Shown here in pieces: positions 57,397-62,084 of a DNA stretch of 64,000 bases. Origin of the DNA: Labrys wisconsinensis. GTDB taxonomy: Bacteria > Pseudomonadota > Alphaproteobacteria > Rhizobiales > Labraceae. The notes beneath the pieces are model-generated. The model was not told the DNA's origin, ran no database searches, and worked only from the letters and a program-made list of their open reading frames with translations. The position numbers and the translations under genes are program-made. The DNA lies in the NCBI RefSeq assembly GCF_030814995.1, contig NZ_JAUSVX010000003.1:62001-126000 (forward strand). The letters run 5' to 3'. Each line of letters starts with the position of its first letter. The first letter of the stretch is position 1.

Positions 57397-58044
57397 TCAG
57401 GCTGCGGCATAGGCCAGGGCGCAATAGGCCGTGCCGATCGCCGGCCCCTCGAGGCGGCGGACGCCGAGCCGCAGGGATGGCAATCCCGGCCCGGCCGGCA
57501 GGGCGACTGCGACGCCGTCCCGTGCGAGCGCGTGCAGATGCGGCGTGAGATCGGGCTCGGCGAGGCCGTCATAGACGCCGCGCCCCGACATCTTCAGCAC
57601 GGCCTCCTTGGCCGCCCACAGCCGATGACAGAGGTCGCGGGCGCCGGGTCCGGACAAGCGCCCGACCGCCGCGGCCTCGCCTTCGGAATAGTGGTCGGCC
57701 GCGAAGGCGGCGGGTGCGGACGGGCTATCCGGCCCGTCGAGCTCGATGTCCGCCCCGACGAGCCCGTCGGGCGCGAAGGCGGCCAACAGCATGCCGGCTC
57801 GGCGTGAGAGGGACACGCCGAGCTCCGGATAGGGCGGGGCCAGGGCCGGGCGGCCGCTGGGCCGGCGATGGATGCGGATGTCGTCGCGGCCCGTGGCCGC
57901 GCGCAGCGCCGCGGCCGCTGCGGTGATGCGCAGGTGCCCTCCCCCGGGGGCGTCGTCGGCGGGTGCCGGCACCAGGACGGCGAGCGCCGGGCCGATGCGC
58001 ATCACGGGGCCGGCAGGCCGGGCGGGCCATGCCGACGCGCTCAC
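57397..58044 (-). CDS. 4'-Phosphopantetheinyl transferase (Sfp type)
   Basis: A 215-residue enzyme that loads coenzyme-A-derived phosphopantetheine on carrier proteins. The Mg-binding and catalytic motifs are VGADIEL and WAAKEAVLKMSGRGV (about 145-160), with PPYPELGVSLSRRAG in the middle (substituted for the usual SISH). The GTG at 58044 overlaps the stop of the synthetase gene (GTGA), so it almost certainly activates that carrier domain. It ends about 190 bases before ssb. Confidence 0.9.
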   Translation of the reverse strand: MSASAWPARPAGPVMRIGPALAVLVPAPADDAPGGGHLRITAAAAALRAATGRDDIRIHRRPSGRPALAPPYPELGVSLSRRAGMLLAAFAPDGLVGADIELDGPDSPSAPAAFAADHYSEGEAAAVGRLSGPGARDLCHRLWAAKEAVLKMSGRGVYDGLAEPDLTPHLHALARDGVAVALPAGPGLPSLRLGVRRLEGPAIGTAYCALAYAAA

Positions 58045-61000: not shown

Positions 61001-62084
61001 GGAGCTCGCCGACCTCCTCCGGCCCGACCAGCCGGAGATCCTCGTCCACGACATAGGCGGTGGCATTGGCGATCGGCCGCCCGATGCTGACGGCCTCGCC
61101 GGGGACGAGCTCGGCGAAGGTCGCGACCACCGTGGCCTCCGTCGGGCCATAGGTGTTGACGATGCGCCGCCCCGGCCTGGCGAAGCGCTGCACCAGGGCC
61201 GGCGGGCAGGCCTCCCCGCCCAGCACGACGAGGCGAAGGCTGTCGACGTCCCGGCCGAACATCGACAGGAGGGTCGGCACGGTATCGATGACCGTGACGC
61301 CCTCGGCCGCGAGGCGGTCCGGCAGGGCGTCGACGTCCTGGAGCACGTCGGGCGTCGCCACCTTCAGCGTGGCGCCGGCGAGGTAGGGAACGAAGATCTC
61401 CTCCAGCGCCAGGTCGAAGGCGATGGAGGCCTGCTGCAGGACGACGTCGGCAGCCTCGATGCCGAGGAAGGCATTCGCAGCCCTGACATAGTGGCAGATG
61501 TTGCGGTGGGTGACGACGATGCCCTTGGGCGTGCCGGTCGAGCCGGAGGTGTAGATGGCATAGGCGGGGGCGGAGCAGCCCGGCATCGCCTCGGGCGCCG
61601 GGGCCGCCGGCTCGGCCAGGAGAGCGCCGAGATCGGCGGTCTCGACGGCGAGCGCGCCCAGCTTGTCGCCCATGGCATCGTGCGAGAGCACGAGGCGCGC
61701 CCGGGCATCGTGCAGGCAGGTCGCGACCCGCTCCGCCGGAGCGTCCGCGTCGAACGGCACGAAGGCGGCGCCCGCCTTGAGGATGCCGAGCATGGCGACG
61801 TGCAGCTCGAGCGAGCGGCGGAACCACAGGCCGACGAAGTCCCCCGGGCGCACGCCGCGACGCGCCAGCGCGCCGGCGACGGCATCGGAGCGCCGGTCGA
61901 GCTCGGCATAGGTGAGGCGCTCCGGCGCGCCGATGCGAGCCAGGGCCGTGCTGTCGGGGAAGGCCCTGGCCGTGGCTCGGAAGATATCGGCCAGCGTCTC
62001 CTCGCGCAGGAAATCGGGGCGAACGTCGCCGCTGAGCGTCGCGCAGGCGCGACTGCCGGGCGCCGGTGATAGATGGAGGGTCAC
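58041..62084 (-). CDS. Pls/PosA-type nonribosomal peptide synthetase
   Basis: A 1,347-residue membrane synthetase. Adenylation domain, about 20-500: YTSGSTGTPKGIV, NTYGPTEATVV, YRTGD, RIDDQVKIRGYRIELGE, LPRLASGKVDRK. Carrier domain with Ser562 in DLGGHSML. The last 750 residues have three pairs of membrane helices, each followed by a soluble module with hexapeptide-repeat sequence (IGADVQIGNGCVIGGDTVIG; IGRGTEIS; IGKGTWINTTD). This is the layout of epsilon-poly-lysine synthetase (Pls), which joins one amino acid into a homopolymer. By eye the pocket reads D-L-E-D-V-G-T-V-V-K, acidic enough for a cationic amino acid. GTG 62084 has AAGGA upstream; TTG 62114 is an alternative. Confidence 0.87.
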   Translation of the reverse strand: MTLHLSPAPGSRACATLSGDVRPDFLREETLADIFRATARAFPDSTALARIGAPERLTYAELDRRSDAVAGALARRGVRPGDFVGLWFRRSLELHVAMLGILKAGAAFVPFDADAPAERVATCLHDARARLVLSHDAMGDKLGALAVETADLGALLAEPAAPAPEAMPGCSAPAYAIYTSGSTGTPKGIVVTHRNICHYVRAANAFLGIEAADVVLQQASIAFDLALEEIFVPYLAGATLKVATPDVLQDVDALPDRLAAEGVTVIDTVPTLLSMFGRDVDSLRLVVLGGEACPPALVQRFARPGRRIVNTYGPTEATVVATFAELVPGEAVSIGRPIANATAYVVDEDLRLVGPEEVGELLIGGPGVAPGYLNLPDLTARKFVANPFWDGPDPVLYRTGDAVSLGADGRLSFHGRIDDQVKIRGYRIELGEIEALIAAEPGVQAAAVVVHQGAAGDTLCAHLVAAEGFDPQRARRALAARLPPYMLPAAWQTHAALPRLASGKVDRKALAAIPPGQERSAAAQEPPRSWTEAQLLKAAQDVLRMPAVDLEADFFTDLGGHSMLAARFVSEVRRVPALAGIAIRDVYAHRSLRRIAVALDEGAAGAMDAADLSFEPVPLRRRVLCGLAQAVTLPVLIGIVTLEWIGLLLASTLLLGDDAPLWQDVLVLCGVFLGLNLGVKVLAVALKWLIIGRTRPGVYPLWGAYYFRIWLMERVVQLTAHKFLKGSPLMRIYLRALGAKVGRDAVIDEFEEGAIDLVSIGERASLGTKLKLANVEVIGNQVHVGRIEIGADVQIGNGCVIGGDTVIGAGAAIGDLTAVPAGTRIAEGSRWDGSPGRQTGMAEQSDPGDHPRQGAVARFVQIAFYALAYNLGLVVGLLPIFPAFYVLETLQGAVTGDPDAPLPWWLVAALSWPAALALIVVSMAVMVALRWLLLPRVRPGTYSIFGGLYLRKWFVGLTTESILETLNSLYATVFMRNWYRLMGARIGRGTEISASFAGRYDLIEMGRDNFIGDETVFGDEEIRNGWMTLRRMKTGDRCFFGNSSVIAQGCTIADDALIGIKTRLPEGLAVDAGETFCGSPPMRLPTRQKIAAAASTTYDPPFRMWLLRVAFETLHTSLPTAVLIATAYVTAGFIAARLDQGFWALLGLFTACGLVTSVAMYAMAVACKWLLIGTYRPMMRPMWSWWAMRTEAVAVIYGGLASKMLLDYLRGTPFLPWLLRPFGTRIGKGTWINTTDICEFDCTEIGDHAVLNMGSCPQTHLYEDRIMKVGRIRIGRGVTIGSGSTVLYDTEIGDFAEVKPLTLIMKGETIPAGTAWVGAPAQGGAVRAPRPATPVEDQALRLRDAAE

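Follow-up and report, generated by a model that had tools for sequence, protein, structure and literature searches.

A Pls/PosA-family synthetase with a DLED-type pocket beside a divergent sensor module in Labrys wisconsinensis

The window analysed here is a stretch of 64,000 nucleotides from Labrys wisconsinensis (contig NZ_JAUSVX010000003.1, positions 62,001 to 126,000), whose genome is 8.9 Mb in 55 contigs. It carries an intact synthetase of the Pls/PosA family, an enzyme family that is already known and has a name in NCBIfam. Pls/PosA enzymes make antimicrobial polycations. A phosphopantetheinyl transferase gene follows the synthetase gene, and a three-gene sensor module is transcribed away from it on the other side (Table 1). 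What is added to prior work is this linked sensor module and a conserved clade of synthetases that appears to be derived from ornithine-type enzymes.

Table 1. Features at the locus and at two cousin loci (window positions unless a locus is named)
Feature	Position	Strand	Basis
Pls/PosA-type synthetase (A-T-TM/C1-TM/C2-TM/C3)	58041..62084	-	Open reading frame, Pfam, TIGR02353, AlphaFold model, hydropathy
Adenylation domain, pocket DLEDVGTVVK (D224, E228, D267; GTG numbering)	60573..61982	-	Pfam AMP-binding and AMP-binding_C, PosA alignment
Carrier (T) domain, LGGHS with attachment serine S562	60297..60485	-	PF00550 30.8 bits, cut-off 20.8
C-terminal polymerisation domain, three helix pairs and three beta-helix modules	58122..60203	-	TIGR02353, AlphaFold, Foldseek
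Sfp-type 4'-phosphopantetheinyl transferase	57397..58044	-	PF01648 34.8 bits, cut-off 25; motifs VGADIE, WAAKEAVLK
Candidate response-regulator site, CTTACA-N5-CTTGCG-N4-CTGTCA	62161..62192	-	Divergent intergenic conservation
Small PepSY-like protein, first gene of divergent module	62244..62573	+	Four homologues align; PF03413 weak
OmpR-family response regulator	62579..63250	+	PF00072 and PF00486
Sensor histidine kinase	63247..64000, past window end to ~64671	+	HATPase_c; locus L141 7248-8672
ectB-type transaminase beside DFE synthetases	L035 5292-6683; L043 5245-6543	+; -	ectB model, identity

The synthetase frame is unbroken to its stop at 58041. It has 1,347 codons from the GTG at 62084, which is preceded by AAGGA, or 1,357 from the TTG at 62114, a possible alternative start. 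Domain residue numbers count from the TTG (protein P0001), and numbering from the GTG is lower by 10. Pfam places AMP-binding at 45-383, AMP-binding_C at 442-514 and PP-binding at 544-606. At E <= 0.01 it finds one adenylation and one carrier domain and no classical condensation or thioesterase domain. The C-terminal part scores 577.2 bits against TIGR02353 ('Pls/PosA family non-ribosomal peptide synthetase', cut-off 423.1), with profile positions 2-695 of 695 aligned to residues 638-1331. Hydropathy gives six helices grouped as three pairs. The carrier and C-terminal part (residues 526-1335), modelled by AlphaFold from 52 sequences (mean pLDDT 88.8, pTM 0.90), has three repeats, each of two long helices and then a beta-helix-like run of short strands. 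By Pfam alone only the third hexapeptide block is above cut-off. The best 50 of 512 Foldseek matches are single left-handed beta-helix proteins (CysE, LpxD, GlmU, gamma carbonic anhydrases), acetyl- and acyltransferases among them, and none of these 50 covers the whole C-terminal domain. The original prediction had named the family from an adenylation domain, a carrier, six membrane helices and three C-terminal modules. All of this agrees with the profile, hydropathy and model, and the modules align with the family from end to end.

The substrate pocket was read by alignment with PosA, the delta-poly-L-ornithine synthetase of Acinetobacter baumannii (PMC10522769), which has the same domains as the window enzyme and whose predicted model is described there with similar C-terminal repeats. 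An A. baumannii locus (L128) has PosA D217, M218, E221, H260, N280, T304, V312 and S313 at their published numbers. PosA D217/M218/E221/H260/N280/G282/T304/V312/S313/K502 align to D224, L225, E228, D267, V287, G289, T311, V319, V320 and K504 of the window enzyme, which gives the code DLEDVGTVVK. Code positions are given in Stachelhaus numbering (235 to 517). The same ten letters had been predicted by eye, and the acids then placed at code positions 239 and 278 are E228 and D267. There is Asp at code position 1 (D224) and Glu at code position 3 (E228). PosA and the window enzyme are identical at positions 235, 239, 301, 322, 330 and 517, and mutants of PosA make D235 and E239 essential (PMC10522769). 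The window pocket retains both of these acids. It does not fit the DMEHNGTV[ST]K code of PosA-type enzymes; PosA itself has DMEHNGTVSK. Code position 2 is Leu225. This is neither the small Ala at 236 that marks Pls-type epsilon-poly-L-lysine synthetases nor the Phe that marks poly-diaminobutyrate/diaminopropionate synthetases (rules in PMC10522769). At 236 and 278 the Lys-type rows of our alignment show Ala and Ser, the window enzyme Leu and Asp. At position 278 PosA has His260, which is reported to make no contact, and the ornithine domain of bacitracin BacB module 2 has an acid at this place, code position 4 (PMC10522769). E228 and D267 of the window enzyme thus put an acid at each of the two positions known to bind the side chain.

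This pocket is not peculiar to Labrys. The code DLED[ILV]G[TS]VVK is found in 87 of 104 aligned synthetases, namely that of the window, that of one Rhizobium plasmid and those of 85 further loci, among which two were fetched in duplicate (L038 = L048, L040 = L062). The remaining 17 comprise 15 with other codes and two, L034 and the plasmid row Scatt (L132), that align badly at the pocket. L047 and L121 had no extractable synthetase frame and were left out. It must be noted that the set is biased, as 80 loci are the best matches to the window protein of 260 confirmed. A FastTree phylogeny of 102 rows, which excludes L132 and L034, puts the 87 DLED rows in one group with PosA adjoining, under long-branch warnings. 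In a mixture-model tree of 35 rows (short search, SH-aLRT support only) the DLED group has support of 100 and is nested in a grade of DMEHNGTV[ST]K rows whose successive branches have 100, 99 and 97. The Lys-type DAES-coded rows fall outside the group. PosA is the characterised enzyme closest to the clade. Its adenylation domain is 45% identical to that of the window, and as a query the window domain scores 347.6 bits against PosA's structure 8g95 versus 195.8 bits against the Pls structure 7wew. Pls itself, the epsilon-poly-L-lysine synthetase of Streptomyces albulus, shares the architecture, going by the family description.

The nesting of the DLED clade inside the DMEH grade argues that it is derived from an ornithine-type ancestor, although this does not fix the present substrate. 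The pocket changes in the clade are Met to Leu at 236, His to Asp at 278 and Ser/Thr to Val at 331. Outside the pocket, the carrier serine S562 and the C2/C3 polar residues D1013, N1042, D1247, N1252, Q1258, H1260 and E1308 are highly conserved. At least 97% of 86 clade rows retain them, as do at least 93% of 15 outside rows, PosA included (L132, L034 and L046 are excluded from this count). These residues are family-wide and are kept in a proven polymer maker, which favours a polymer as the product here.

Parts of this clade have appeared in print. Products of such alphaproteobacterial enzymes had been called mostly uncharacterised in the original prediction, which is right, but the pocket signature was already published: Patel & Gulick (2023, PMC10522769) give DLEDIGTV(T/V/I)K for rhizobial and Methylobacterium proteins with the substrate unassigned. 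Those proteins differ from the window at 299, and the T or I variants also at 331. A Bosea relative labelled NAPAA by antiSMASH has DLEDLGTVVK and differs at 299 only, and one study reports a NAPAA cluster in Bosea NBC_00550 as well as in each of the seven other complete genomes of the genus that it compared (PMC10508160). The Bosea and Methylobacterium loci that we fetched fall in the same clade as the window.

Members of the DLED clade occur in alphaproteobacteria of several families that live in soil or with plants. In a sample of relatives 17/100 genomes score above the TIGR02353 cut-off, and in a sample of the class 8/240 do, the window genome included in each. Among 41 Azospirillum genomes 36 are above this cut-off, or 37 at E <= 1e-80, where the extra one is in two pieces. 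Near-core presence in Azospirillum together with a spread over several families suggests a physiological product rather than an occasional antibiotic. In Rhizobium tropici CIAT 899 the synthetase is on a plasmid of 2.08 Mb. In other families it sits amid housekeeping genes. A histidine-phosphatase-type gene is upstream in 27 loci and aroC is in the flank at 23 (both named by eye). With such neighbours it looks like a long-settled gene and not a recent antibiotic cluster. Two Azospirillum records need a word of caution. In the Azospirillum-group genome G377 (C932 2741-4824) the terminal domain of the synthetase is two matches with an internal TGA. An apparent giant fused synthetase in Azospirillum (L158, a frame of 3,474 residues) was rejected, because the frame is created by some 7 kb of N that precede the C-terminal part.

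The sensor module is the second feature of this locus. The original prediction had reported no adjacent export or tailoring gene, and inspection of the neighbours agrees, but it overlooked this conserved divergent module, which begins at 62244. Besides the window, tblastn finds the regulator (81-89% identity) and the kinase (71-74% identity for its in-window part) in the shared divergent position at 17 loci: 12 from the Rhizobium group and five from three Labrys genomes. These are all the Labrys and Rhizobium-group loci fetched, so the count is 17/17. An annotated Rhizobium plasmid copy has the same gene order. Within Labrys the module flanks the synthetase in all four synthetase-bearing genomes of five, the window's included. 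The fifth genome (G004) has neither the synthetase nor an orthologue of the kinase, its best match being 31% identical and elsewhere. The synthetase is also found on seven Rhizobium plasmid records (two from one strain) at 60-80% identity, in a search that covered plasmids, with the neighbourhood read in one. This distribution suggests that synthetase and sensor module may have travelled together.

The best named models of the regulator are PmrA, RppA, QseB, TctD and PhoP, and that of the kinase is PhoQ. Against these models the regulator scores 197 bits for PmrA (NF007928, cut-off 330) and 176 for PhoP (cut-off 336), and the kinase 144 for PhoQ (NF008077, cut-off 497). All four members of the small protein family match PF03413 at E up to 1, the best at 1.3e-4. 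The genes feuN, feuP and feuQ of Sinorhizobium meliloti are laid out in that order. FeuNPQ and PhoPQ/PmrAB have a small modulator, an OmpR-type regulator and a kinase in one run. The window module clearly has the regulator and the kinase, and its putative PepSY-like protein, below the Pfam cut-off, may correspond to the modulator. The window regulator and kinase fall below all the curated PhoQ, PhoP and PmrA cut-offs. FeuPQ is induced by the cationic peptide NCR247 and FeuN binds FeuQ (PMC12486126, a preprint), and insertions in feuQ or feuP lower competitiveness under polymyxin B (PMC5539429). Between the divergent genes there is a suggestive candidate site for the regulator. Across seven representative Labrys and Rhizobium loci it is the best-conserved 31-column block, tied with its own shifts, of 83 gap-free blocks (mean identity 0.80 versus 0.73). 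Among the papers listed for rhizobial homologues, NAPAA in alphaproteobacteria and linked two-component systems, in a library without most subscription journals, no title deals with a sensor beside a synthetase of this family.

The third feature is the transferase. Its GTG at 58044 overlaps the TGA of the synthetase by 4 bases, as had been predicted along with its function, although the ATG at 57999 is a possible start too. Its motifs fit the (V/I)G-x-DIE and WxxKEAxxK of Sfp-type transferases. Two further PF01648 genes are elsewhere in the window genome. A purpose-built profile finds a transferase directly downstream and on the same strand in 19 loci, 15 from the DLED clade and 4 others, in a search where 89 loci hold at least 1.2 kb downstream. 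Two more loci, L042 (genome G055) and L034, have a transferase-like gene close to the synthetase on the opposite strand. Searched as whole genomes, the three other synthetase-bearing Labrys have no match to the window transferase at E <= 0.001. The synthetase-free Labrys genome has a weak one (E 6.9e-5). The linkage recurs, and yet genomes can do without it, presumably by using a general transferase. The idea of the synthetase's own activating transferase therefore stands for the window genome and fails for its three relatives, and across Labrys the linked gene appears to be dispensable. Neither an adjoining transferase nor a sensor module was seen in the fetched Bosea (4), Methylobacterium (9) and Azospirillum (19) loci, where enough flank is present upstream in 4, 8 and 6 and downstream in 4, 7 and 19 respectively. 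The PosA study describes posA as having no obvious co-transcribed neighbours (PMC10522769), in contrast to the window gene with a transferase on one side and a divergent sensor module on the other.

We argue that this enzyme probably makes a short isopeptide polycation of one housekeeping cationic diamino acid, with ornithine the leading candidate, and that sensing of the envelope or of cationic peptides probably governs it. Our rough probability for this reading is 0.6. The linked transferase, or a general one, would arm S562 of the carrier domain. The adenylation domain would activate a single cationic diamino acid, most likely L-ornithine and then L-lysine or a close analogue, with D224 binding the alpha-amine and E228 and D267 binding the side-chain amine. 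The three membrane-anchored beta-helix modules would pack as one domain, which would link neighbouring residues, the side-chain amine of each to the carboxyl of its successor, and release a short isopeptide polycation. The same membrane domain probably moves it outward. The divergent module of PepSY-like protein, response regulator and histidine kinase probably controls the synthetase gene. It may read the envelope state or cationic peptides, perhaps the cell's own polymer included. A linked sensor of the cationic-peptide type would offer a handle on the timing of polymer production.

Several observations weigh against this reading. In the pocket Val320 stands where PosA has Ser313 (code 331), whose loss costs PosA 183-fold (PMC10522769), and the pocket therefore departs from a plain ornithine one. 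Our literature search turned up no member of the DLED clade with an assayed substrate. In the module the PepSY-like protein of the window is weak, at E 0.0071 and 17.1 bits against a PF03413 cut-off of 24. PhoQ and PmrA are the best among many models, all below cut-off. The AlphaFold model of the kinase (pLDDT 77.0, pTM 0.48) has matches for its kinase domain and leaves the sensor domain unplaced. The module was not found at the other 80 loci, where the upstream flank reaches at least 1.5 kb in 61 and at least 2.5 kb in 56. Five module-free loci (Devosia, Hyphomicrobiaceae and relatives, with 1.5-9.0 kb upstream) are in the same subclade of 24 rows. The absence of the module at other loci means that the polymer chemistry is independent of it. 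Finally, the candidate site is modestly conserved relative to the rest of the intergenic stretch. A genome scan for it is at chance, with one match (itself) against four for the reversed control, and on this count a wider regulon marked by the three-part repeat was rejected.

One can imagine the same machine with another monomer bound by E228 and D267: L-lysine, giving epsilon-polylysine, or something larger or more basic, for which arginine, beta-lysine and modified diamino acids are examples. We regard this as possible, if clearly less probable than ornithine. G289, T311, V319 and V320 occur too in the Lys-type rows with the code DAESIGTVVK. Viomycin-type synthetases have a beta-lysine code that resembles DLEDVGTVVK. 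A homologue from the Bdellovibrionales has modest activity with arginine (PMC10522769). Against other monomers, position 236 is Leu where Lys-type enzymes have Ala, and the clade branches within the ornithine-coded grade and apart from the DAES rows. We therefore order the monomers by phylogeny and pocket size: ornithine is likelier, then lysine, with arginine or beta-lysine as outsiders. Beta-lysine from a dedicated aminomutase was set aside, the only TIGR00238 gene of the window genome having a counterpart in the synthetase-free Labrys. A class I lysyl-tRNA synthetase at 54054-55760, about 2 kb downstream, was considered as a hint of lysine and rejected. No counterpart was matched around the synthetase at the other loci fetched, so it is probably a chance neighbour.

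Diaminobutyrate can be weighed by its supply genes. Two DFE-coded cousins have a diaminobutyrate transaminase upstream on the same strand, 1.5 kb away in L035 (DFECLSAVTK) and 1.3 kb away in L043 (DFEPISAVSK). The first scores 605.9 bits for ectB (cut-off 552.2) and the second is 51% identical to it, so these are likely poly-diaminobutyrate loci. Near DLED synthetases the best match to this transaminase is 25% identical and some 10 kb off, and no gene there exceeds 26% identity. Among 11 genomes with a DLED synthetase, the diaminobutyrate transaminase dat is above cut-off in none and ectB in one (Labrys okinawensis). The window genome has neither above cut-off (no search for diaminopropionate genes was made). 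Diaminobutyrate is therefore an unlikely monomer for the DLED clade and was rejected. A special supply gene can adjoin a synthetase and none does so here, which makes a housekeeping diamino acid likelier.

Another possibility concerns control rather than chemistry. The sensor module could adjoin the synthetase gene and yet control a separate regulon that leaves it out, which we consider unlikely on balance. That the module was not found beside the synthetase at the 80 loci outside the Labrys/Rhizobium group, 61 of them with at least 1.5 kb upstream, fits this view, and a candidate site at chance level elsewhere in the genome leaves a shared site unproven. However, the divergent layout is kept in two families with the regulator as conserved as stated above, and module and synthetase are jointly missing in the fifth Labrys genome. 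A bolder version of our preferred reading goes the other way. Here a PhoPQ/FeuNPQ-like system senses periplasmic cationic peptides, its output is the cell's own polycation, and the two-acid pocket takes a monomer new to such polymers. We hold this to be improbable. If true, it would be a closed sense-and-make circuit for an envelope-active polycation in alphaproteobacteria.

The least probable scenario is that no free polymer is released and the enzyme instead transfers one or a few cationic residues to a lipid of the membrane or to a polymer of the surface: the membrane helices, the acyltransferase-like beta-helix modules (LpxD-ACP complexes are among the 50 Foldseek matches listed of 512) and the near-core presence in Azospirillum (37/41) would fit such an envelope role, but the family-conserved residues are kept as in PosA, and no lipid or surface-polymer gene was recognised in the 45 largest recurrent neighbour clusters, a weak search by eye of the first 50 residues of one member each.

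Some neighbours at other loci are worth recording. Just upstream of the synthetase and on its strand, a Devosia locus (L055 6858-8816) and a Rhizobiales metagenome-assembled genome (L060 6907-8784) have genes of 652 and 625 residues with no Pfam match. In genome G072 a DFEALGTVTK synthetase is followed by a transferase, and facing that transferase, with its end roughly 0.3 kb away, is a lysine-2,3-aminomutase-like gene (L031 4293-5594, plus strand; above cut-off for TIGR00238, below it for TIGR03822 at 355 bits against 396). This gene is the only TIGR00238 match in that genome and might supply a beta-amino acid. On a Sphingomonas plasmid (L133 2974-8089) a DMEHNGTVTK synthetase, a phosphopantetheinyl transferase and a GNAT acetyltransferase overlap, and an S8 peptidase gene follows. 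On a Rhodococcus plasmid (L134 2917-9725) a DFEYLGTVTK synthetase overlaps a BPL-N domain gene, which is followed by a heparan-glucosaminide acetyltransferase-like gene. These Rhodococcus neighbours are possible tailoring genes.

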